Source of the DNA: Sphaerochaeta sp.
Lineage (GTDB): Bacteria; Spirochaetota; Spirochaetia; Sphaerochaetales; Sphaerochaetaceae
Length of the DNA stretch: 64,000 nucleotides
Reading direction: 5' to 3'
NCBI GenBank assembly: GCA_016342655.1
Contig: JAEINL010000010.1
Span: forward strand, 1-64,000
In this document: positions 9,392 to 21,636 of the stretch, piece by piece
Layout of the letters: every line of letters starts with the position of its first letter
Numbering within the stretch: position 1 is the first letter of the stretch
Made by a program: the position numbers and the translations under genes
The notes under the pieces: generated by a model
Database searches by the model: none
What the model saw: only the letters and a program-made list of their open reading frames with translations
What the model was told of the DNA's origin: nothing

Positions 9392-10888
9392 ATGAACCTA
9401 ATCCCCTACCCAAACGGAGAAGTGAAGCTGAGTCCCGAATTGTTTGTCTTGGGCAAGGAACCCAGCATTGAAAGACCCGATGAGCCCTTTTCCTTTGCCA
9501 CTGACCAGGTACAAGGCTGGCTGACTGAAAAATGCCATCTGGTGCCTACCCTAGTCGAGCCTGGGCAACCAGCATCGATCAGGTTCAGAAAATCAAACAG
9601 AAACTTGCCAGACGAAGGGTATGCGATATACGTTTCACCCGATGGATGTATTCTTGAAGCTGACTCAGCTACAGGGGCATTCTATGCCTTCCAGACCTTC
9701 AAGCAGCTTATCGATCCCAAAAAGGGAAGCATTCCCTGTTGTGAGATTCATGACAGCCCATCCTTCCCTTGGAGAGGATTGCTCTTGGATGCCACCAGAA
9801 CATTCTGTCCCCTGAGTGAAATTCTAAGGCTGATCGATCTCTCATCATCACTCAAGCTTAATGTTCTCCACCTGCATCTTACTGATGACCAGGGATGGCG
9901 AATCGCTATAGAGGCCTATCCCCACCTTACCGATTCCAGAGCCCAGTTCTATACGAAGGAAGATATACGCAAGGTGGTAGCCTATGCCAGGGAGAGGAAC
10001 ATCACCATCATCCCTGAGATAGATATGCCTGGGCACTTTGTTGCAGCACTTGCTTCCTATCCCCAGTTCAGTTGCACCGGAGGGCCATTTACTATCCCAC
10101 AAGGGGAAGGGATTTTCTCCGAACTGCTCTGCTTGGGTAAGGATGAGGCTCTACTCTTTGCTAAACAGGTTATTGGTGAAGTGTGTGACCTGTTTCCTGC
10201 CAAATTCATTCACCTTGGAGGGGACGAGATTCCACTCATTCGGTGGAAAGAATGTCCCGACTGCCAAAGCAGGATGCGAGAACTAGGGATGAAAGATGAG
10301 AAGGAATTACTGCGTTGGTTTGCCAATGCCATGGCCCAAGTCGCAAAGAAGAAGGGAAAGACAGTCATCTTCTGGAATGATTCGATCGATACGCAGTATG
10401 ATCCCTCAATTGTGTGCCAGGTATGGAATCCTTTGAGCAGTGGCAGCAATACAGTCGGGGATCGGCCCCTTATCATGAGCCACTACTTTCGTACGTATCT
10501 CAATTTGTCCCATTCGATCATTCCTACCCGTGAGGCCTATCACTATGGCTTGGTGCTCAATGACGACCCAACGCGAAAGACCTCTATGAAGGGATCGGAA
10601 TACCTGCTCTGGACTGAGCATATCCACACCAGGAAGGAACGGGACAAACATCTGTTTCCTCGTCTGGGTGCAGGGGCGGAGGCAATGTGGACAGATCCAA
10701 GTCATCTAGACCTGAAACGGTTCTGCCACGCGTTTTCCCTGTGTAATGAGCGCCTGTTCCTATCCCCAGTTGCCAGAACCCACCCGCTGGCTGCCAATCC
10801 TCCTAGGCTTTACTGCACCCTACGAAGGTTTCTGCAGCACCAACAGGTCCGATACAACAGCAAGAAATCAGGAATCACCAAGTCCTAG
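9392..10888 (+). CDS. Glycoside hydrolase family 20, beta-N-acetylhexosaminidase
   Basis: A 498-residue GH20 enzyme with clear family landmarks: an N-terminal domain ending in the FYAFQTFKQL segment, then HLHLTDDQGWRI, PEIDMPGH and the catalytic pair D278-E279 in HLGGDE, and a late WTEHIHT motif. It removes terminal beta-linked GlcNAc/GalNAc. No signal peptide is apparent, so a cytoplasmic chitobiose- or glycan-oligosaccharide-processing role is likely. Composition matches the bulk of the window, unlike the AT-rich GH20 paralogue upstream. Released GlcNAc could enter the NagA route encoded at 19-21 kb. Confidence 0.92.
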   Translation: MNLIPYPNGEVKLSPELFVLGKEPSIERPDEPFSFATDQVQGWLTEKCHLVPTLVEPGQPASIRFRKSNRNLPDEGYAIYVSPDGCILEADSATGAFYAFQTFKQLIDPKKGSIPCCEIHDSPSFPWRGLLLDATRTFCPLSEILRLIDLSSSLKLNVLHLHLTDDQGWRIAIEAYPHLTDSRAQFYTKEDIRKVVAYARERNITIIPEIDMPGHFVAALASYPQFSCTGGPFTIPQGEGIFSELLCLGKDEALLFAKQVIGEVCDLFPAKFIHLGGDEIPLIRWKECPDCQSRMRELGMKDEKELLRWFANAMAQVAKKKGKTVIFWNDSIDTQYDPSIVCQVWNPLSSGSNTVGDRPLIMSHYFRTYLNLSHSIIPTREAYHYGLVLNDDPTRKTSMKGSEYLLWTEHIHTRKERDKHLFPRLGAGAEAMWTDPSHLDLKRFCHAFSLCNERLFLSPVARTHPLAANPPRLYCTLRRFLQHQQVRYNSKKSGITKS

Positions 10889-11075: not shown

Positions 11076-11756
11076 TCACATCAGATCTTTAAAAGGCACC
11101 CTTCTGTCATAACATCCATCTTTTTCACAATATGCACAGCTCTCATAGTCTTCAGTTGGAGAAGCAAATATCATTCCACTGATGCTCTTATTAGGCAACA
11201 TGAGAAAACTTTCTGTTAGGGAGACGCCAATGTCTTGAGTTCCTCCCAAGATTTCAAATAAATACTGTTGCTGCTCAATAGGCCAGATATCCACATTGCC
11301 AGAACCCGGATTAAGACTCTTTGGCTTTGCTATCCCACAGGTCTGTCTGCAGTAGGCCATCAGGGCAAGCCTTGCGTCCCGTAGACCTTGTTGCTTGATC
11401 GAGTCAACCCAATAAGGGGCAAGCATATCAAATTGGGAAACATCAAAACACTCCATCTCATCGCCACAGGTTGCCACATACGCAAATACACGATGCACAT
11501 TGTGTAACACCCGTAAGGCTTTACCTATAAACACAACTCCATCTATGGTGACAGAGGGGATCCCCTCGATTATAGCATGGGACGTGATAAACCGTTCACA
11601 GATGAGTACCTTTGGCTTTAGGACATCTTTCGCCTTCTGATACACATCGAGAGCCTCATCCTGGGCATCATCAAGGTCTTCGAAACGAACACTTCTTTTG
11701 TATTCAACCAAGGATGGGTTGAATGGGGGATGGAGAATACGTCGCTTCTGTTCCAT
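11076..11756 (-). CDS. Vitamin B12-dependent methionine synthase activation-domain-like protein
   Basis: A 226-residue protein resembling the AdoMet-binding reactivation domain of cobalamin-dependent methionine synthase. Stand-alone versions occur in corrinoid methyltransferase operons. The landmark is SLNPGSGNVDIWPIEQQ (about residue 145 on), followed by a GVSLTESFLMLPNKS segment. The C-terminus has a Cys cluster, CAYCEKDGC, that may bind metal or a cluster. Likely role: handling or remethylating the cob(II)alamin form of the partner corrinoid protein. Last gene of the corrinoid operon, 25 bp after the CobW gene. Confidence 0.75.
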   Translation of the reverse strand: MEQKRRILHPPFNPSLVEYKRSVRFEDLDDAQDEALDVYQKAKDVLKPKVLICERFITSHAIIEGIPSVTIDGVVFIGKALRVLHNVHRVFAYVATCGDEMECFDVSQFDMLAPYWVDSIKQQGLRDARLALMAYCRQTCGIAKPKSLNPGSGNVDIWPIEQQQYLFEILGGTQDIGVSLTESFLMLPNKSISGMIFASPTEDYESCAYCEKDGCYDRRVPFKDLM

Positions 11757-11781
11757 TTTTTAGTATCTCTCTTATTTTAAT

Positions 11782-12756
11782 TTATGCATGTTCAACACAC
11801 GTTGATGGAGAAGTACCTATGCTTGCCCACGTCTGGTGAAACAGCGAGACTGCATCAACTGATGGATTGTAGAGACACATGACTCCCATGTCAAAAGAAT
11901 TGGGTGTATCTATGAGTCCAAGTTTCACATGGTTTCCCACAACATCGACAAACACGACCTTACCAGCCTCTTTGGCAGGCAGAAAGCCCTTGATCCGCAA
12001 CATCTGTGGAGCAACGGCTGTGAATAATCTCTCCAGTTCCAACAGCTCAAAGGGCTGCTCAGCTGTAAAGACACAGTTTTTGGGTCGTCCTTGCACTCCC
12101 CACCCATGGTAAGGAGTAGAATCTTTGATGGCTACAGGAGAATAGATATTTTGCTCCTCAAATTGATTCATCATTTCATTATCAACAAGACCAAATGTTG
12201 TAGTGAAAATTGGGGCATGAGGTTTAAGGGCCTCAATGCTAGCGATAGTAGTCTTGAGAGACTCCTCACTGACCAGATCACTCTTATTGACAATAAACCA
12301 ATCACTGAAAACAATCTGTTCCTCTATGGTCTTCAGGACTTGGGAGAGAATAGGATACCGTTCGGCATCAACAATACACACCATTCCCCCATAGGTAACG
12401 GTCCCTTTTCCCTGGTCGATGATTATTGAGGCAATTTCCAACAAGGGAACTGGTTTTGCAAGACCTGAAGCCTCAACGAGGATGACATCGACAGCTAACT
12501 TACTCATCTCTATGACACTTTTTATAAAGGAACCAGATAAACAGCTACAAAAGATTTGGCCTCCACTAAGGCTTTTAGTGGAGACTATATCACTCGAGGC
12601 TTGTACCAAGGCACTGTCTATGTTAATAGAGCCAAAGTCATTGAGGATGAGGCCAATCTTCTTATCCTTGAACTGGGAAAGCAAGCTGTTGATTACACTT
12701 GTTTTCCCAGACCCAAGGAATCCCGTAAGAATGTAAAAAGGGATGCTTTTCTCCAC
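11782..12756 (-). CDS. CobW/COG0523-family GTPase (metallochaperone-like)
   Basis: A 324-residue P-loop GTPase. The Walker A motif GFLGSGKT is at residues 12-19. SGGQIFCSCLSGSF carries a degenerate CxCC metal motif (C-S-C-L, third Cys lost), ILVEASGLAKP is the switch/Walker B region and NKSD is the guanine-specificity motif. A CobW_C-like domain follows. COG0523 proteins deliver metals (zinc or cobalt) to client enzymes; here the clients would be the adjacent corrinoid protein or the UroD-type methyltransferase. Its start touches the stop of the methyltransferase gene. Confidence 0.85.
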   Translation of the reverse strand: MEKSIPFYILTGFLGSGKTSVINSLLSQFKDKKIGLILNDFGSINIDSALVQASSDIVSTKSLSGGQIFCSCLSGSFIKSVIEMSKLAVDVILVEASGLAKPVPLLEIASIIIDQGKGTVTYGGMVCIVDAERYPILSQVLKTIEEQIVFSDWFIVNKSDLVSEESLKTTIASIEALKPHAPIFTTTFGLVDNEMMNQFEEQNIYSPVAIKDSTPYHGWGVQGRPKNCVFTAEQPFELLELERLFTAVAPQMLRIKGFLPAKEAGKVVFVDVVGNHVKLGLIDTPNSFDMGVMCLYNPSVDAVSLFHQTWASIGTSPSTCVEHA

Positions 12757-14102
12757 TATAATACCTTTTTAATCTTTGAAATCAGTTCCTCTCTGCTTGG
12801 AATGATTGAAGAGAATTCTAACTGACCATTGATGTAGATACTTGGCAACTTTTTCACCCCTATAGCACGACATCGTGCAATGTTTTGCTGTGTTGTATAT
12901 TTGTACTCTACCAGGTCAACATGCTCTTTCATCACACCAACGGCCTCCGTAGCAGCTGCAAGCATGTAGGTGCATGCTGCACACGTTGTAGAGTCGAGGG
13001 TGAACACTTCCACCAAGGGAGCATCAAGATGCTCATAGTCAGGCAAGACGCCCGTGAACGCAACTTCTTCCTTGGTATAATTACTAACCATAGAACGGGC
13101 ACTTTCAGTCTCATGGACAGCATGTTCGATAGCTATGGCATTCTCAAAGGGGATATCATAGGGCATATCACAGCCTGGGGAGATGATAAGGCGTCCTGGG
13201 GAGAGTGAATCAATGAGGTCTACGACAACTTTCATATTATCCTGCTGATTACCAAACAGCATCACCGACGTAAGAGGAATATTTCCCCCAATAGTGACGC
13301 CATACCTATCTGTAATGGCTTTGGCATCCTTCAATGATACGTTCTCATCAACAGACATGCTGTCAGGCTTTGTCTTGCACATCGGCTCGATATTCATAGT
13401 TGCATTTCCGCATACGAAGAATGAGGATTTTGCACCATCGGCCCTGATATGGTCAAACAAGTCACTGAAAGGGACATGCATGAACTCACCAAAGTGTGCA
13501 GGTGATATCTGTGATATCAAGGGGTCCACGACAGCAACGATATCAATACCAGCCTCTATCAGATAGGTAGAGACAGCCTTGATGACTCGTGTCGAATAGT
13601 CTAGCAAGGCATGGACATACTCAGGTTCCAGCATCATATCCATGAAAATTTCAGTACCGCGCAGGTGTGATGCCAAGGTAAAGGGACCACAACAGACTCC
13701 ATAGAGAGCAGTTGTATCACCAATAAGAGGCTTCAGTTTCCTGATAGCATCGAGATGAGTCTTAATTCTTCCCTCGTCTGCTGTCGGTATCTTCTTAGGA
13801 ATGTCAGTAGTCTCTGCCAACGGGTGTGTCTTTACTGTAGGAGGACTGTCATCACTCCATAAAAGTTCACAACCAAGAACTTCTGCTTCAACTTGGAGGT
13901 CAAACATGACAGGTTGTCCATCAGGTTGGTATAATTTATTCACTTCAAGTGCTGCTTCTACCAAAGCATCTACTTCAGTCGATACTTTTATTGCATCGTA
14001 TCCCACAAGTTTGCCTGCATGGACCCCTGTGAAGGGGACCCAGGGCAAACGGTCAGTTGGAAGTCCTGACAGCGTAGTAAAAACTCTCTCTTTACCGGTC
14101 AT
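12756..14102 (-). CDS. UroD-family corrinoid methyltransferase fused to thioredoxin-like domain
   Basis: A 448-residue two-domain protein. Residues 1 to about 345 are a uroporphyrinogen-decarboxylase-like barrel of the MtaA/MtbA/CmuA type, which moves methyl groups between a corrinoid protein and an acceptor thiol. In MtaA zinc is held by His-x-Cys and a later Cys. Here the first motif reads F229-V-C231, with His replaced, while C311 (SPGC) is kept. Residues 360-448 form a thioredoxin-like domain with C374-A-A-C377 and a probable cis-proline at 420 (KKLPSIYING). That fusion is unusual. Next to the corrinoid protein gene (9 bp gap) and the CobW gene. Confidence 0.85.
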   Translation of the reverse strand: MTGKERVFTTLSGLPTDRLPWVPFTGVHAGKLVGYDAIKVSTEVDALVEAALEVNKLYQPDGQPVMFDLQVEAEVLGCELLWSDDSPPTVKTHPLAETTDIPKKIPTADEGRIKTHLDAIRKLKPLIGDTTALYGVCCGPFTLASHLRGTEIFMDMMLEPEYVHALLDYSTRVIKAVSTYLIEAGIDIVAVVDPLISQISPAHFGEFMHVPFSDLFDHIRADGAKSSFFVCGNATMNIEPMCKTKPDSMSVDENVSLKDAKAITDRYGVTIGGNIPLTSVMLFGNQQDNMKVVVDLIDSLSPGRLIISPGCDMPYDIPFENAIAIEHAVHETESARSMVSNYTKEEVAFTGVLPDYEHLDAPLVEVFTLDSTTCAACTYMLAAATEAVGVMKEHVDLVEYKYTTQQNIARCRAIGVKKLPSIYINGQLEFSSIIPSREELISKIKKVL

Positions 14103-14111
14103 TAGTACCTC

Positions 14112-14753
14112 TTATGCTATTTCTTTACACAGTTGCAAGGCCACTTCTGAAGCTGTTGCAGCATCAGTAGTATAGGCATCTGCTCCAATCTTATCTTTGA
14201 ACGATTCCGTTACAGGAGCTCCGCCTATCATCACCTTGACGTTCTGTCCCAGCTTAGCGTCCTTCACTGCCTTCACCACATTCTCCATCTCTCGCATGGT
14301 CGTAGTTAACAACGCTGAGCATGCTATGATATTTGCCTTGTGCTCTATTGCCGCTTCCACAAAACGGGCAGGAGTCACGTCGGTTCCCAAGTTGACGACA
14401 GTCAGGCCCTTGCCTTCCATCATCATGGCAACCAGGTTCTTCCCAATGTCGTGCAAGTCCCCTTTTACGGTTCCTATCACGACAGTTCCCCGGCTTACCA
14501 TATTGTCTGCCACAAGCAGGGGTTTGAGGATTGCCATCCCGGCATTCATTGCCCGTGCGGCAATGAGAACCTCCGGTACAAACACCTCATTGTTCTTGAA
14601 CTTCACCCCGATGATGCTCATCCCAGCAAGTAATCCTTGGTCCAGGATCTCTTCGGGTTTCATCCCTTCATCAACCGCCTGTTGGGTCAGTTCCTTTACG
14701 TCCTTTGCCTTACCCCTTTGCAGAAACTCCGAGAGCGCTTTCATGTCAGCCAT
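14112..14753 (-). CDS. Corrinoid (cobalamin-binding) methyltransferase protein, MtaC/MtbC-like
   Basis: A 213-residue methyl carrier. The N-terminal helical cap is residues 1-85 (LTQQAVDEGMKPEEILDQGLL). The C-terminal Rossmann-like B12 domain has the signature D99-L-H101-D-I-G104, in which His101 is the lower axial ligand of cobalt, plus the IACSALLTTT and GGAPV segments that hold the nucleotide tail. It accepts a methyl group from a donor-specific methyltransferase and passes it to the UroD-like protein encoded next. RBS AGGAATAGGT. A cobalamin riboswitch lies in its leader. Confidence 0.93.
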   Translation of the reverse strand: MADMKALSEFLQRGKAKDVKELTQQAVDEGMKPEEILDQGLLAGMSIIGVKFKNNEVFVPEVLIAARAMNAGMAILKPLLVADNMVSRGTVVIGTVKGDLHDIGKNLVAMMMEGKGLTVVNLGTDVTPARFVEAAIEHKANIIACSALLTTTMREMENVVKAVKDAKLGQNVKVMIGGAPVTESFKDKIGADAYTTDAATASEVALQLCKEIA

Positions 14754-14809
14754 ACCTATTCCTCCACATACCTAGTATACGTATCAGCTTGGTCCTCGAA
14801 GCTTATTTT

Positions 14810-14960
14810 TCCTGTAGTCAATCAAGGTTTCCTGGCTTACGCTTAGGGCCTCCCCTACACCTTCCCAGTCTCCCAGTGGCTCTTGTAGGATTGTCAGCGC
14901 TTACAGTGACGGGCTCGTGAAGGATTCTCACCTTACTTCCCTTGGAATTGATCATTAAAT
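14810..14960 (-). promoter_or_regulatory. Cobalamin riboswitch
   Basis: On the minus strand the conserved parts occur in order: GGTGAGAATCC (5' arm), GAGCCCGTCACTGTAA, then the B12 box AGCCACTGG (14873-14881), GGGAAGGTGTAGG, and CGTAAGCCAGGAAACCTT as the 3' closing part. This is the adenosylcobalamin-type aptamer. It lies in the leader of the corrinoid-protein gene, downstream of the PocR/AraC gene. No strong U-tract terminator follows, so control is probably at translation start (inference). Outer boundaries are approximate. Confidence 0.9.
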
Positions 14961-15044
14961 CTCTATGATATAGATGGTAAGGTACTTACATTCCATAATC
15001 TATAAAAATGTTATTTTTTTTTACACTATTATCCGATTGCTCGA

Positions 15045-16331
15045 TTAACTCATATCTTCAGTATGTATCTCATGCCTATTTGAGGGGAAATGTCCTGCTT
15101 GTTTTCGATATTTCCCTGGGGACAGATTCGTTTTTTCCTTGAAGACCTTGGAGAAGTAACTTTGTTCCTCAAAGCCCACCAATGAGGCAATCTCAATGAT
15201 GGGAAATGAGGTGTCGAGCAACAGTCGCTGGGCATGTTCGATGCGGACCTTGTTCACATACGAAGAGAAAGAGACACCCATTCTTGTATTGAAGAGACTA
15301 CTGAAGTAATTAGGACTCAGCTGTGCACTATGGGCTGCCTCTTCCAAGGAAAGATGGCCACTGTAGTTGGCGTGGATGTAGCGAAGGGCTTTTGCAATGG
15401 TAGGGTTATACTCGCTATCCATTGAGACAAATACCATTTCCATATAGGAGTGGAGGACTTTAGCAAGCCAGGCGGAGATTCCTTCCAAAGATGAATATTG
15501 CCGTATCTCTTTTTGGCAGGCCAAACTCTTTGTCAGTACATCCTCTTCACTTGCCACCCCTCGGACAGCGGCTCTTGAGAGGATTGATAGGATCTCCATC
15601 ACTCTGAAGGAAATGCGTTCCAGGGAATCCCCACTTGAAAAAAAGATAATCCCAAGCAGTTCATTCATGATAGTCATGGCTTTCGCCTTATCACCCCAAC
15701 GAATGGCATCCTGGAGGGCACTCTCCTTTTCAATTGGGTAACAGTGAATCTGATCCTTACTCTCACTTTTCAGCTGTTGGATGTTTTCAGACAAGCGCGA
15801 CTGCAACTCAAGGGACTGACGAGTTTCAACCATATGGTGTTCACTGTATCCAGAAGCCCATCCGGAACACATCCTTAATACTTCTGAAAGACTATGAACC
15901 CGATTAATATCTATATGAGTAAGGCTGTCTAATATCCTCATAAGTTCGTCTTTTTCTTCAATATGGGCTACCACAGCTTCTTCCAACACTTCGCTAGAAT
16001 CTAAGGTCATCACAGGCCCCGCAATGATAGCATAATCCATTCTCCCATCGATAATTACAGGGCTAACCCAGTACAACATTGAAATAAGACCAAAATAGAT
16101 ATATGAGCCACCAAAGCGTTCTGACAACACTGCACTATGAAGGTGTGTCTCTAGGCAGTGGTCTTTCCATGTGGAATCTATGAGGCTGAAAAGCGTCTCC
16201 AATTCACTATTCTCAACGTCTAGGAGGGTGTGATGAAGAACATCCAACACCATACAGGGAATACCTGTAGCTTTGCTATAATGAGATGTAATATCTCTGA
16301 CTCCCCTTGGAACCTCTGCATTAGCTATCAC
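15045..16331 (-). CDS. PocR-domain AraC-family transcriptional regulator
   Basis: A 428-residue regulator. The N-terminal region (about residues 5-165) resembles the PocR sensory domain, which binds small metabolites such as diols. The C-terminal AraC domain (about 318-415) shows both helix-turn-helices, LSLEEAAHSAQLSPNYFSSL and IIEIASLVGFEEQSYFSKVF. It overlaps the activator gene by 4 bp (ATGA) and precedes the riboswitch-led corrinoid genes, so it probably senses the methyl-donor substrate and activates the cluster. The ligand is unknown. Confidence 0.85.
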   Translation of the reverse strand: MIANAEVPRGVRDITSHYSKATGIPCMVLDVLHHTLLDVENSELETLFSLIDSTWKDHCLETHLHSAVLSERFGGSYIYFGLISMLYWVSPVIIDGRMDYAIIAGPVMTLDSSEVLEEAVVAHIEEKDELMRILDSLTHIDINRVHSLSEVLRMCSGWASGYSEHHMVETRQSLELQSRLSENIQQLKSESKDQIHCYPIEKESALQDAIRWGDKAKAMTIMNELLGIIFFSSGDSLERISFRVMEILSILSRAAVRGVASEEDVLTKSLACQKEIRQYSSLEGISAWLAKVLHSYMEMVFVSMDSEYNPTIAKALRYIHANYSGHLSLEEAAHSAQLSPNYFSSLFNTRMGVSFSSYVNKVRIEHAQRLLLDTSFPIIEIASLVGFEEQSYFSKVFKEKTNLSPGKYRKQAGHFPSNRHEIHTEDMS

Positions 16332-17947
16332 TGGTATCCTTCCATGAACATCATTTGCTCAACGTAATACTCGTTGAAAAGAGCTGATGATGACAATTCA
16401 ACATAATGCGCACTTTCTCTAATCTGTTCAACGTTACAAGATTCTTCTTCTATGAGCAACACATCAAGTGCCCCTCTTCCTGCAGCATTGCCAATGGCAA
16501 TAATCTTTTCTGTTTCTACCTGAGGCAACAGTCCAATTCGTTTGGCACTCGTTGCATTGATGAAAGAACCGAATCCCCCTGCAATGACAACAGAACCCAG
16601 CGAAGAAACTTCAAGGTGTGCTTCTGCAAGCAGCACAGCACTTCCCGCTGCAATGGCAGCCTTCGCCAATTGTACCTGGCGTACATCAGCATGGGTAAAA
16701 CGTACCGTATCTGTGATACGAAAGGCAAGGTTGCCGTTACTCAGCTGAAGATATTTCTCCGCCAGAGGATGAGCTCCATCCATAGCACCTGTCTCATCAA
16801 CCAAGCCAATGTTGAGTAACAAGGCCATGATATCAATAATGGCAGAGCCACAGATACCAACTGCAGGAACGCTTCCGATGGTACTATGCTCAACCCCACC
16901 CGCTTCATTCAGCCATACACGGTCAATGGCTCCCTCAACTGCTCCCATCCCTTGGGTGATGGAGGCTCCTTCGAATGCCGGACCTGCAGCAGAGGAACAA
17001 CACGAAATATCTTTTCCATCAAAAAGAACTATCTCGCCGTTGGTTCCAATATCGATATAGAGAACTGGAAGCGTATCATCCATGATATGGGATGAGCGTA
17101 CCCCTACGGTGATATCACTGCCGATGTAGGCAGAGACACCTCCTGGAAGGATAAGATTGACACGAGGAAAGTCAGCAAAGCCAACGTCTGTTGCCATCAG
17201 GGACAAGGGTCCGTCAATAGTTGTGATGAAGGGAGCGACTGCGATCCCAGAAGGGTCTTTCCCTGCAAGGAGGTGGATCATCGTGGGGTTTCCCACTGCT
17301 ACGATCTCCTTGATAGATTCTGTCTTTACTCCATAGGTATTCTTTAAATCTTTCATGAGAATGTCCAGGTGTTTTACAATGACCTTTTGAAGAACTGTGA
17401 GCCCATTGGCATGCTCATTTGAATATTGGATACGGGTAATGACATCCCCACCATAGGAGGTTTGTGGGTTTAGGCTGGAACGATTATCGATGATCTCTCC
17501 TGTATCAAGACGGGCAAGGTACACCACTACGGTGGTGGTCCCTATGTCTATTGCATAGCCATAGGAAGGAGAGGGGAATCCTTGTCGCAATTGGGTTGTA
17601 GTAACTCTCTCTTGGAACTTTGAGACAACTTGAGCTTGTTTATTGGTACCGACAAGGGCGATAGTCACATCTTGTCCCTCTTGGGGTTTCATCCTGCAGG
17701 CAAGACGAAAGTGCTGTTCTAGGGAGGGATCGGTCAATAGCCTTTGTTCATCAGGATGCAGAGGCAAAAACTTTTCTCCAACTTCCTGGACCAAGCATTT
17801 TCCACAAAGGCCATTGCCTCCACAAGGGGCATGGATATCACCCATACCAAAATTGGAGAGCACATCGAGAACACTCATCCCTTCACCAATTGGGAGTTCT
17901 ATTCTCTTTCCATCTGTAATAACTGTAAGAATTCCTGTATGTGCCAT
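16328..17947 (-). CDS. Corrinoid reductive activator (RACo/RamA-like ASKHA ATPase with 2Fe-2S)
   Basis: A 539-residue protein. The N-terminal ferredoxin domain has C42, C48, C51 and C84 in the plant-type 2Fe-2S spacing (CGGNGLCGKC ... C). The rest is a DUF4445/ASKHA actin-like domain (GYAIDIGTTTVVVYL, LYIDIGTNGEIVLF, GICGSAIIDIMALLL, VIAGGFGSFIN). Family members use ATP to drive reduction of inactive cob(II)alamin to cob(I)alamin on corrinoid proteins. First gene of the cluster, RBS AAGGATAGG. It supplies the repair function for the corrinoid protein encoded 1.6 kb downstream. Confidence 0.92.
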   Translation of the reverse strand: MAHTGILTVITDGKRIELPIGEGMSVLDVLSNFGMGDIHAPCGGNGLCGKCLVQEVGEKFLPLHPDEQRLLTDPSLEQHFRLACRMKPQEGQDVTIALVGTNKQAQVVSKFQERVTTTQLRQGFPSPSYGYAIDIGTTTVVVYLARLDTGEIIDNRSSLNPQTSYGGDVITRIQYSNEHANGLTVLQKVIVKHLDILMKDLKNTYGVKTESIKEIVAVGNPTMIHLLAGKDPSGIAVAPFITTIDGPLSLMATDVGFADFPRVNLILPGGVSAYIGSDITVGVRSSHIMDDTLPVLYIDIGTNGEIVLFDGKDISCCSSAAGPAFEGASITQGMGAVEGAIDRVWLNEAGGVEHSTIGSVPAVGICGSAIIDIMALLLNIGLVDETGAMDGAHPLAEKYLQLSNGNLAFRITDTVRFTHADVRQVQLAKAAIAAGSAVLLAEAHLEVSSLGSVVIAGGFGSFINATSAKRIGLLPQVETEKIIAIGNAAGRGALDVLLIEEESCNVEQIRESAHYVELSSSALFNEYYVEQMMFMEGYQ

Positions 17948-18231: not shown

Positions 18232-19419
18232 CTACTCCACCTGAGCCAGCTCACTGAACAATGTTTCACATACCAGATACATCCTAGGGATGTGGAAAGG
18301 ACCTTTGTACATATTTCCCTTCAGAGGGGTGGAAAGGGTGTTGTCGTGATGCAGGTAGCCATACCACTCGCCAAACTCTCTGTCGACAAAGTTGGCCTTG
18401 ATGTACTGGTCCACCTCACTGAACTGCTCAAGGTACTGCTTGTTATGTGTCAGCGAGTATGCCATAAGGTTGGCAATGGTTGCCTCACACTGTGGCCACC
18501 AGAACTTCATGTCGTGCCAGTACTCGGTGGCGCTCTTTCCTAGGGCATCTCGGAAATAGATAATGCCTTTTTTTTCTGCATCCCAGCCAACCTTCCACAT
18601 CCAGTTGAGCATCTTGGTTCCTAACTGCATGAGGGTAGCATCGTTGTTACGATACCGAGCCTCACGCATGATAAACCAGGCACCCTCAATGGCGTGCCCA
18701 GGGTTGAGCAGCCTTCCTTCGAAGTGTTCAAGTTCAAGTGATCCATTATCAGAGCACTGCTCCACCACAATCTCAAGCTCGTCTCGGACAAAATACTGTT
18801 CTATCTCTTGCAGGAGGCCATCGATGAAAAGAGTCAGCTCTTGTGCGTGTTCTGGACAGGCTTCACGAAGCTCCTGCGCAGTGTTGAGCAAAATCATGGG
18901 AACACCGAATCCCCTTGAAGACCGTTCTGACTTGGGAACGAGGATATCCTTGCTCTTGAGGGTAGATAAGACTGTCTGGAACAGGGCGTACGCCTTAGTA
19001 GCATACTCCTCCTTCCCAAAGGCCCTGCTATAGGAAGCAAACCCGATGATCGCAAAGGTCTCGCTGAATACATAGCGTATGCGCTTTACCACAGGCTTGC
19101 CTTCACGACTTACCCTGAAGTACATACGGCCATCAGAGGGGTCAAACCCATACTGCTCGATAAAGTTGACCAACGAGTCACAGACCTGCTGGTACTGTGA
19201 TCTCTTATCATACAGACGTGCAGCCTCGCTGAACGTCCACAAAGCCCTACCCTGGAACCAGATGGACTTGTCTGTCTCCAACAGGGCTCCATCACGGTCG
19301 AGACCTGTCAGCATCCCACCATATTCATGGTCGAAGCCATGATCCAACCAGAATGGAAGCACATTGTCCAAGAGCATCGTGCGATACTCATTGGCAAAAA
19401 CGGAAAACATATTTTTCAT
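18232..19419 (-). CDS. N-acylglucosamine 2-epimerase (AGE) family protein
   Basis: A 395-residue (alpha/alpha)6-barrel protein typical of the AGE/renin-binding-protein family, which interconverts N-acylglucosamine and N-acylmannosamine, or epimerises other aldoses. Landmarks: FWLDHGFDHEYGGMLTGLDRDG near the N-terminus, WFQGRALWTF, NPGHAIEGAWF and the late KFWWPQCEA segment. The start is the ATG preceded by GAGGTCAACT; an in-frame codon 4 residues earlier lacks an RBS. Genetic linkage to nagA and a GntR regulator supports an N-acetyl amino-sugar substrate. Confidence 0.88.
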   Translation of the reverse strand: MKNMFSVFANEYRTMLLDNVLPFWLDHGFDHEYGGMLTGLDRDGALLETDKSIWFQGRALWTFSEAARLYDKRSQYQQVCDSLVNFIEQYGFDPSDGRMYFRVSREGKPVVKRIRYVFSETFAIIGFASYSRAFGKEEYATKAYALFQTVLSTLKSKDILVPKSERSSRGFGVPMILLNTAQELREACPEHAQELTLFIDGLLQEIEQYFVRDELEIVVEQCSDNGSLELEHFEGRLLNPGHAIEGAWFIMREARYRNNDATLMQLGTKMLNWMWKVGWDAEKKGIIYFRDALGKSATEYWHDMKFWWPQCEATIANLMAYSLTHNKQYLEQFSEVDQYIKANFVDREFGEWYGYLHHDNTLSTPLKGNMYKGPFHIPRMYLVCETLFSELAQVE

Positions 19420-19456
19420 AGTTGACCTCACCTATCTACAGCTGTGCAGCGTACGC

Positions 19457-20608
19457 TTACTCTGCCTTGAAAACCTCTTGAACATCCATAGCATCAGAGA
19501 GCATTACCAGATCAGCCTTGTATCCCACTCTGACAAAGCCACTGTCTGTTTGCGAAAGCACTCGTAAGGGGTTTTCCGAGGCAATCCTAAAAAAGGACTG
19601 CTTGTCCAACAACCCCTCCTGATAGAGCATCTTTGCTGATTCAGTGATCAGGGTAGCAGAGCCTATCAGGGTATCGCTGTCGCTATAATAGCAGGCCTTC
19701 CCAGTCGAATACATCTTCTTCCCCAAATACAGACCCTCACCGGGACCCATACCAGCCAAACTCATAGCATCGGATATGAGGCACAGCCTTGTTGTCCCCA
19801 GGGTACTGATTGTCATATCTATCACTGAAGGATGGACATGCAAAGAGTCACACACAAGTTCATAGGTTGCACCCCTGTAGTCGCTGACAAACGGCATGGC
19901 TGATAAGCCTGGGCGTTTGTGGTCGATACCGCTCATGGCATTGAAAAGGTGGGTAAGGTGATACTTGCCCCTAGGCTTCAGCTCCTGGAGGGGGCAATCA
20001 CTATGACCATAGGCCACAACAATATCGTGTTCTTCCAGGATGGTCGAAAGCTCCTCACTATGAGGCAGTTCAGGGGCAATGGTCATCATGGTGACCAGGG
20101 GTTTCGCCCCTCGCCTGATGGCAAGGATTGCATCCAGATACGCCCTATCATACGCTCTGATTCCAGAAGGGAGTATCCCCCCCTTCTTCTCTAAAGCAAT
20201 GAAGGGGCCTTCCACATAGACTCCAAGCATATGGCTTGCAAGAAAGGGACTCTTGTCCAACGCCTTCTTGATCTGGACCAAGAGATCCAAATCCATGACT
20301 ACAGCCAGCTGGAAAGCTGTTATGCCCTTCTTTTCCAGAAACAAGGCCAACCCCTCAAGGTTTTCCTGTATATTGCCTCTTGTAGAATCAAAGCCGCCAG
20401 ATCCATGGAGGTGCATATCGACCAGACCAGGGCCAACCAGATTGCCTTTGGCATCAAATTGCTTGAGATCTCCTACCAATGCCTCATCATGCCTACCCAC
20501 ATAGGTGATGACCCCCTGATGCACCACTACAGTGGCATCAGGGACAAGAGCCCCATCTGTATAGACAAGGGCATGCTTAATTGCATAGTCGTGTTCATGA
20601 TGGACCAT
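19457..20608 (-). CDS. nagA: N-acetylglucosamine-6-phosphate deacetylase
   Basis: A 383-residue amidohydrolase converting GlcNAc-6-phosphate to glucosamine-6-phosphate plus acetate. Metal-site and family motifs: GPGLVDMHLHGSGG, EGPFI, AYGHSD, HLTHLFNAMSGIDH and the catalytic Asp region LISDAMSLAG. Only 3 bp separate it from the upstream GntR gene, and 37 bp from the epimerase downstream. It would process GlcNAc released by the GH20 enzymes in this window after phosphorylation. No nagB is visible nearby. Confidence 0.93.
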   Translation of the reverse strand: MVHHEHDYAIKHALVYTDGALVPDATVVVHQGVITYVGRHDEALVGDLKQFDAKGNLVGPGLVDMHLHGSGGFDSTRGNIQENLEGLALFLEKKGITAFQLAVVMDLDLLVQIKKALDKSPFLASHMLGVYVEGPFIALEKKGGILPSGIRAYDRAYLDAILAIRRGAKPLVTMMTIAPELPHSEELSTILEEHDIVVAYGHSDCPLQELKPRGKYHLTHLFNAMSGIDHKRPGLSAMPFVSDYRGATYELVCDSLHVHPSVIDMTISTLGTTRLCLISDAMSLAGMGPGEGLYLGKKMYSTGKACYYSDSDTLIGSATLITESAKMLYQEGLLDKQSFFRIASENPLRVLSQTDSGFVRVGYKADLVMLSDAMDVQEVFKAE

Positions 20609-20611
20609 AGG

Positions 20612-21295
20612 TTACTCTTCTGTCTCGGGAGGATTGATTTTGTATTTGTAGGAGAAATGGAAAATAAGACTTGCCATGAAAGCCTCATAGTCCTTCTCTC
20701 GCAGGGCAATGCTTATGTCCCTATGCTTCTTGATGCGTAGGGCCTTGTCTTCAATTACCTTGGCTCTGAAACTGCGGTCACACTCCCAAGCAGAGTCCAG
20801 AAATGCTATCAGCATCTTGTTATCGAGATTCTCATACATGCTACGGTGGAAATAGGCATCAGAGTCATAGAAGTCCTCATACTCCTCGAAGGACTCCATC
20901 GCCGTCACACAATCCTCCATCCGCGTAATCTGGTCGTCAGTTATGGAATCGAAGCACTGTTGGGCAAATCCTATTTCCAGGACCTTGCGCACTTCCTGGG
21001 ACTGCCTGAACAGATCCCCTTTATCATCTATCAGATTAAGGAACATGCAGGTGGAAAGCGAACTGGGGGAGAAGGCGTTTACCACCATTCCCACCCCGGG
21101 CTTGGAGCTGACCACACCAAGGATCTCAAGGGTCTTGATAGCTTCCCTGAGCACGTTCCTGGAAACACCCAAAGCCTGGGACAGTTCCATTTCTGTAGGA
21201 ATCTTGTCCCCAGGTTTGAGATTGTTCTTCAATATGTAATGACGTAACTCATCATATACCTGGAGATACAGTTTCTTGCTCTTCAAATTCTTCAT
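20612..21295 (-). CDS. GntR/FadR-subfamily regulator of the amino-sugar genes
   Basis: A 227-residue regulator. The winged HTH spans residues 5-70 (ELSQALGVSRNVLREAIKTLEILGVV) and an FCD-type all-helical effector domain follows. The longest frame begins with a TTG two codons earlier, but the ATG has AAGGA 7 nt upstream. Co-transcribed with nagA and the epimerase. It is also divergent to the AT-rich ABC operon, so it is one of two FadR-type candidates to bind the TTGTACTACAA palindromes between them. Confidence 0.85.
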   Translation of the reverse strand: MKNLKSKKLYLQVYDELRHYILKNNLKPGDKIPTEMELSQALGVSRNVLREAIKTLEILGVVSSKPGVGMVVNAFSPSSLSTCMFLNLIDDKGDLFRQSQEVRKVLEIGFAQQCFDSITDDQITRMEDCVTAMESFEEYEDFYDSDAYFHRSMYENLDNKMLIAFLDSAWECDRSFRAKVIEDKALRIKKHRDISIALREKDYEAFMASLIFHFSYKYKINPPETEE

Positions 21296-21636
21296 TATCA
21301 AGTCCTTGGCATATACTGCAGAAATACTTGGCTATGAAATAGAAATCTATCACATTTTGTCGATGAATGCGATATGGGAGTTTCCCTTATGCTCATTCAA
21401 AAAACGAAGTAAAAATCATTCCTTATCTTCTTGGGAAAAAAACCAATTACAGTTAACAAAACAACGTAAATTCATATGGTAAGTCAATCATGTAATCAAA
21501 GCTGGTGTCCAAACAGAATGATCAATATCTCGAATCCACCAATAGCCATCTCTGCTTATCCATCAAATAGAATGCTCTTTACACAGGAAATCTACATATT
21601 ACAGGATATACCCCTAAGTATAAAATTTCGGTACCA

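Follow-up and report, generated by a model that had tools for sequence, protein, structure and literature searches.

At positions 11076-17947 of the stretch of DNA analysed here (the window, 64,000 nucleotides of contig JAEINL010000010.1 from the Sphaerochaeta sp. assembly GCA_016342655.1), the minus strand carries a cassette of seven elements that were recognised with Pfam, NCBIfam and Rfam: a reductive activator (RACo), a PocR/AraC regulator, a cobalamin riboswitch, a corrinoid carrier protein (CorP), a uroporphyrinogen decarboxylase (UroD) superfamily protein with a fused thioredoxin domain (UroDTrx), a CobW-type GTPase and a MetH-activation-like protein (MetHact). An earlier note, made from the sequence of the window, had placed the same parts in one minus-strand cluster, and all of them are indeed present. 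Beyond that note, we report the thioredoxin fusion and the unusual active site of UroDTrx, the absence of a folate-side methyltransferase, a broad distribution, and orthologues that carry an in-frame TGA codon. The features are as follows.

16328-17947, minus strand: RACo-type ATP-dependent reductive activator of a corrinoid protein, 539 amino acids; Pfam RACo_C_ter 3.5e-68, Raco_middle 1.4e-46, Fer2 1.6e-9
15045-16331, minus strand: PocR-sensor AraC-family regulator, 428 amino acids, GTG start; PocR 3.1e-10, HTH_18 8.2e-23
14825-14942, minus strand: cobalamin riboswitch, between the PocR/AraC regulator and CorP; RF00174, 72.7 bits, E 5.2e-16
14112-14753, minus strand: CorP, corrinoid carrier protein, 213 amino acids; B12-binding 2e-26, B12-binding_2 5.1e-22
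12756-14102, minus strand: UroDTrx, MtaA-like methyltransferase fused to thioredoxin, 448 amino acids; URO-D 6.6e-54, Thioredoxin_3 4.2e-6
13110-14102, minus strand: UroD/MtaA-like domain of UroDTrx, residues 1-331; Pfam, profile search, structure match
13410-13418, minus strand: residues 229-231 of UroDTrx, F-V-C, with Phe at the place of the MtaA zinc histidine and then Cys231; alignment
13170-13172, minus strand: codon of UroDTrx Cys311 (in PGCDMP), the second site cysteine; cysteine in 84/84 intact open reading frames (ORFs), in-frame TGA in the orthologues at loci L099 and L126
12777-12992, minus strand: thioredoxin domain of UroDTrx, residues 371-442, with CAAC = C374/C377; Pfam, profile matches 1nho 2.2e-6 and 1fo5 6.4e-4
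11782-12756, minus strand: CobW-type GTPase, 324 amino acids, CxC motif; cobW 1.5e-37
11076-11756, minus strand: MetHact, stand-alone MetH-activation-like protein, 226 amino acids; Met_synt_B12 1.9e-11

The predicted model of UroDTrx (pLDDT 93.5, pTM 0.89) finds its best structural matches in two MtaA structures (4ay7/4ay8), with Z values of 42.7 (4ay8) and 42.5 and a root-mean-square deviation of 1.7-1.8 over 325 residues; uroporphyrinogen decarboxylase follows below them with Z 36.8. The fold agrees with the score of UroDTrx against the UroD superfamily model PF01208, which at 183.6 bits lies far above the gathering score of 23.9. The more specific MtaA/MtbA models are missed (TIGR01463, 137.9 bits against a cut-off of 235.4; NF040654, 126.0 against 400; NF041608, 118.5 against 600). 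With the MtaA/MtbA methylcobamide:coenzyme M (CoM) methyltransferases, UroDTrx shares the fold, both aligned site cysteines and 25% identity to MtaA, but it has a phenylalanine for the zinc histidine, a C-terminal thioredoxin domain and a host that is not a methanogen.

S-methyltransferases of the UroD superfamily have a zinc site of the His-Cys-Cys type (PMC10418091). The histidine is retained in MtaA, in CmuA and in the aligned spirochaete and clostridial paralogues with an HCC site, whereas all 84 intact UroDTrx sequences have Phe229 at this position. C231, C311, D312, C374 and C377 are equally invariant in the alignment. CmuA, the chloromethane methyltransferase, is a donor enzyme of the same superfamily with about 26% identity to UroDTrx; it keeps H-C-C, however, and with 617 amino acids it has another C-terminal part where UroDTrx has the thioredoxin. 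The combination of a cysteine pair (or, as described below, a probable cysteine/selenocysteine pair) with a built-in thioredoxin, but without the zinc histidine, suggests that the cysteines do more than hold zinc: binding or reduction of a soft substrate atom may be their task, with sulfur or selenium, possibly also arsenic or mercury, as that atom.

The assembly that contains the window (3.9 Mb, 99.98% complete, 5.9% contamination) has no match to MTTB (PF06253), MtaB (PF12176) or MtrH in family searches. The absence of an MttB or MtaB donor enzyme, which the earlier note had claimed for the cluster, thus extends to the whole genome. The wording that the cluster has no recognisable substrate methyltransferase was too strong, since MtvB, OdmB, VdmB, CdmB and CmuA are all donor enzymes of the UroD superfamily (PMC13222342, PMC10418091). 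MtvB had been named as an example of what the cluster lacks, which fails for the same reason: it is itself a UroD-superfamily protein, and the donor role is thus open to UroD proteins. A donor enzyme encoded elsewhere and co-regulated by a riboswitch was considered and rejected, because the two remaining cobalamin riboswitches in this genome lie ahead of TonB-type and ABC-type genes that appear, by eye from sequence and gene order, to serve B12 uptake.

The folate methyl branch, which the earlier note had suggested checking, is likewise bare. Only two proteins of the genome belong to the pterin-binding family, one DHPS-sized and the other of MetH length, which means that the usual folate acceptor enzyme is missing alongside the usual donor enzyme. 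The B12-binding cap domain is also limited to two proteins, CorP and a protein of MetH length. Among the 12 spirochaetes with UroDTrx (see below), pterin-binding proteins are either DHPS-sized (~300 amino acids) or of MetH length (770-1262 amino acids), and none was found in G144 and G305. It is therefore very unlikely that the cassette is an ordinary anaerobic O-demethylase or methylotrophy system, for methoxy-aromatics, methanol or betaine, with folate enzymes encoded elsewhere. UroD-superfamily O-demethylases are known (PMC13222342), and in G326 a TRAP transporter and another UroD with an H-D-H site follow the cluster. However, O-demethylases of this superfamily have one or both site cysteines replaced (PMC10418091), and MtvB and OdmB, set apart here by their descriptions, combine this with a folate methyltransferase partner; UroDTrx keeps both cysteines and has no such partner.

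A role in methionine synthesis, as a split B12-dependent methionine synthase or as a reactivation module for one, is the least probable of the explanations that we considered. The presence of MetHact and RACo would fit it, as would DUF1638 proteins in some clostridial loci, which are known from a split methionine synthase (PMC5764234), but the genome encodes a full-length MetH (an ORF of ~1180 amino acids on contig C137), and UroDTrx is patchily distributed even inside its own genus.

Orthologues of UroDTrx with at least 51% identity are present in 12 of 393 spirochaete genomes, the window's included. The cassette is mostly kept together in seven of these (the window's own genome, G326, G224, G328, G261, G371 and G375), and the neighbourhood comparison that the earlier note had called for shows the order RACo-PocR-(riboswitch)-CorP-UroDTrx-CobW-MetHact recurring in several spirochaetes. 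As CobW also adjoins UroDTrx in most loci, the cassette is not a chance grouping. A scan of named genomes found UroDTrx at 54-77% identity in at least 80 loci from Spirochaetota, Clostridia, Chloroflexi and others, and the protein is widespread in Clostridia (Blautia and Subdoligranulum included) and in Chloroflexi. Maledivibacter halophilus, Caldicoprobacter oshimai and Muricomes intestini are examples of carriers in culture. Over 87 loci, many of them on short contigs, CobW was found in 81, CorP in 55, PocR in 47, RACo in 46 and MetHact in 13. A cobalamin riboswitch lies at the junction of regulator and CorP in at least eight related loci (L038, L039, L041, L042, L043, L059, L062 and L171). 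When the five main families (UroDTrx, CorP, RACo, CobW and PocR) are compared by their pairwise distances, the correlations have r between 0.55 and 0.86, values that none of 500 permutations reached and to which shared ancestry contributes.

A joint action of UroDTrx and CorP is best supported by their co-occurrence even where they are unlinked, and by the lack of CorP in three genomes that lack UroDTrx. Orthologues of CorP, with 54-82% identity to the window's protein, are found in 11 of the 12 spirochaetes with UroDTrx. In four of these (G330, G350, G362 and G144) CorP, then 54-65% identical, lies away from UroDTrx, in three cases with RACo beside it. The twelfth genome, G305, is a fragmented assembly that is cut inside UroDTrx. 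Three genomes of the same genus without UroDTrx contain no CorP orthologue, only MetH-type or weak matches.

Some further arrangements were seen around UroD genes. A record of a circular plasmid from Subdoligranulum variabile (OY725850.1, 25.8 kb) contains a UroDTrx gene of 59% identity (L204, 137-1492), which is preceded by the end of a CorP gene and followed by genes for a radical SAM protein and CobW. A BioB-like radical SAM protein and a DUF2284 protein recur beside UroDTrx in Clostridia (12 and 11 loci, respectively; for example L086, L111, L120 and L134). In G375, the gene for a separate UroD with an H-C-C site overlaps a CobW-like gene, identified by eye, by 4 bp (L194, 5132-7083), so pairing of UroD and CobW is not confined to UroDTrx.

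In two uncultured Clostridia, L099 and L126, both metagenome-assembled genomes with similar isolate names, a TGA stands exactly at codon 311 of UroDTrx, and the rest of the protein is intact. The two genes differ by ~14-18% at the nucleotide level. The codons past the TGA comprise 82 identical ones, 51 with a synonymous difference and only 4 with a nonsynonymous one, which indicates that the reading frame is under selection through the TGA. Other genes in these stretches end with TGA as a normal stop codon (yedF and DUF2284 in L099, yedF in L126), and reading through the other neighbouring families revealed no further internal TGA at a cysteine position. The yedF gene, which belongs to selenium metabolism, is near UroDTrx in both cases (198.1 and 203.8 bits, cut-off 110). 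The TGA in frame at a cysteine position, the purifying selection beyond it and the nearby yedF argue that residue 311 is probably selenocysteine (Sec) in these two proteins. No tRNASec was found in the L099 and L126 stretches that were read. In G375 (L043, 3463-6848), selB, selA and tRNASec lie ~7 kb from the UroDTrx cassette, which is one case among many loci and could be due to chance. Literature searches, with subscription journals mostly outside their scope, gave no match for a UroD selenoprotein, and the UroD family is absent from a 2026 review of prokaryotic selenoproteins. UroDTrx and its TGA-bearing orthologues suggest that methyl chemistry on sulfur or selenium has a further, new variant.

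The soft ligands of the site could also serve a different substrate. In this alternative, UroDTrx would demethylate an organometal or organometalloid of the methyl-arsenic or methyl-mercury type, with the Cys/Sec pair binding the soft element, the methyl group going to Co(I), and the thioredoxin releasing the element. Two soft ligands and Asp312 without a histidine would suit such a reaction, and in some Clostridia UroDTrx has neighbours similar to components of metal(loid) selenoprotein systems, namely DUF2284 (ArsM_DUF2284, 25.5 bits), DUF5714 (MbdU, 84.6 bits) and a SaoP-like permease (72.8 bits), all under their cut-offs. As these neighbours occur in some loci only and are absent from the window's cluster, which has no metal-resistance gene either, we regard this explanation as unlikely.

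Together, the data led us to a model on which we are evenly divided, and which is built on sequence evidence: UroDTrx would be the cluster's methyltransferase in a self-contained, folate-independent corrinoid methyl-transfer cassette that moves methyl groups to or from CorP, with a sulfur or selenium compound as the other partner. UroDTrx and CorP would be the working pair. Because the genome has no other known methyltransferase family except one intact UroD paralogue (on contig C10), the simplest model is that these two proteins form the whole methyl-transfer unit. RACo and MetHact would keep the cobalt of CorP reduced, CobW would probably load metal into UroDTrx, and PocR and the riboswitch would make expression respond to an inducer and to B12. 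A methylated compound of sulfur or selenium may be bound or reduced by the Cys231/Cys311 pair, in which residue 311 is probably Sec in some Clostridia; the methyl group would pass between the sulfur or selenium atom and the cobalt, and the thioredoxin domain would act as a built-in reductant that resets the pair. Metal, substrate, direction of transfer and redox cycle are all predictions of this model. Possibly, the same enzyme serves the donor and acceptor sides, as in MtsA. In the methylthiol pair MtsA/MtsB of Methanosarcina, one UroD enzyme and one corrinoid protein methylate CoM and demethylate methylthiols, and may catalyze both half-reactions. The likeness to UroDTrx and CorP lies in this two-component logic, a comparison at the level of description; we know of no thioredoxin fusion or F-C-C site in MtsA.

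Several observations weigh against this model. The assignment to sulfur or selenium draws on the kinship with MtaA, the conserved Cys/Sec and a sparse set of genes for selenium, with yedF in two related loci and selA-selB-tRNASec close to a single cluster. With the histidine gone, a zinc-thiolate mechanism of the classical type cannot be taken for granted. Behind the TGA lies a hairpin with one compensatory change and z values of -2.1 and -0.5; its folding energy is unexceptional, and several cysteine versions of the gene fold equally well. Finally, another UroD or MttB protein is found near UroDTrx in 37 of 82 loci, so UroDTrx may be one half of a pair.

This last point also speaks for the main rival, according to which UroDTrx would be an acceptor-side enzyme only (MTII), a folate-free counterpart of MtaA/MtbA that uses methyl-CorP to methylate a thiol. 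Variable donors (MttB/MtgB, other UroD proteins) would load CorP, and in the window's genome the donor would be the UroD on contig C10 or something unrecognised. The closest relatives, MtaA and MtbA, are indeed acceptor-side enzymes; genes of the MttB family and BCCT-like genes neighbour UroDTrx in L098, L103 and L112. In L058, MetHact is directly followed by an orthologue of the C10 protein with 80% identity. However, no constant second methyltransferase partner emerges across the loci, and in several spirochaetes the cluster lacks any. An orthologue of the C10 protein also occurs in an unrelated context in G224, and the site of the C10 protein reads H-C-N; we keep this protein only as a weak candidate for the missing donor. 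Moreover, a plain thiol acceptor role accounts neither for the lost histidine nor for the thioredoxin. We consider this rival possible, but on the doubtful side. UroDTrx is the only UroD in the window's cluster, and the remaining UroD match of the genome, on contig C149 (L049, 5822-6889), was rejected as broken: it has an internal stop, with its pieces in different frames, and lies beside sugar-transport-like genes.

Among known systems, the type 1 mlp clusters (Kountz & Balskus, PMC10418091), which include SdmABC of Methanococcus, share most with the cassette: an MtaA-like methyltransferase of the UroD superfamily, a monomeric corrinoid protein, a Ram/RACo activator, no folate methyltransferase, occurrence in anaerobes, mostly Bacillota, and a link to selenium. 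Their trait of having no tetrahydrofolate methylase near the cluster is seen here as well. However, type 1 clusters need at least two Mlps, whereas the window's cluster has a single UroD (in L099 and L126, a second MtaA-like UroD does lie beside UroDTrx), and their Mlp site is H-C-C, whereas that of UroDTrx is F-C-C in 84/84 sequences. The fused thioredoxin, the conserved CobW partner, the riboswitch with PocR, and the probable Sec version in two species are features of the cassette alone. As two defining features of type 1 clusters are lacking and the MtaA/MtbA cut-offs are missed, we file the cassette as a distinct variant of UroD-type corrinoid methyl transfer, outside those clusters. The betaine and amine systems of the MttB/MtgB type share an MtgC-related corrinoid protein and RACo, and MttB genes are found beside UroDTrx in a few Clostridia, but these systems require an MTTB protein, of which the window's genome has none. 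An already characterised orthologous cluster, which the earlier note had left as a possibility, did not turn up, and a cluster of UroD, thioredoxin and CobW had no match in the open-access literature, to which the searches were mostly confined.

The remaining parts of the cassette are in keeping with their family assignments. The genes are tightly packed, with a 4-bp overlap of RACo and PocR, a gap of 9 bp between CorP and UroDTrx, a 1-bp overlap of UroDTrx and CobW, and a gap of 25 bp between CobW and MetHact. RACo scores 318.9 bits with the NCBIfam model for AcsV, under the cut-off of 800. The closest solved chain to CorP is 1y80, a cobalamin-binding protein (E 4.5e-62), and its score with the MtgC_2 model is 227.9 bits, under the cut-off of 370. 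CobW, a putative metallochaperone for UroDTrx, has an invariant CxC motif (C70 and C72, 84/84). MetHact matches the activation domain of E. coli MetH (1.8e-7) and 1j6r, a methionine synthase of 214 amino acids (6.2e-6), and is a probable second corrinoid reactivator. Four cysteines (C97, C207, C210 and C215) are invariant in the alignment of MetHact-like proteins, which suggests a metal or Fe-S site. The riboswitch is the sole Rfam match in the window, a promoter scan gave scores not above those of shuffled sequences, and a search for phage carriage gave no match. The cassette lies within an apparent amino-sugar locus (9392-10888 and 18232-21301), with a hexosaminidase-like gene, identified by eye, on one side and N-acetylglucosamine 2-epimerase and NagA-like genes on the other.

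The usual view of bacterial corrinoid methyl transfer is that it supplies folate and acetogenesis. A cassette that is conserved in fermenting spirochaetes, Clostridia and Chloroflexi but has no folate branch points to reactions of methylated sulfur or selenium, or to related ones, in the gut and in anoxic habitats. Tentatively, and with somewhat less confidence than in the model itself, we suggest that UroDTrx may represent a new class of redox-coupled corrinoid methyltransferases, in which the Cys/Sec pair and the fused thioredoxin replace the zinc-histidine site. Such enzymes would handle methyl-sulfur, methyl-selenium or organometal(loid) compounds without folate, in some species with a need for selenium, and this route would be widespread among anaerobic bacteria of the gut and of sediments. 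An active-site Sec in a UroD-type corrinoid methyltransferase would make the catalytic residue directly testable.

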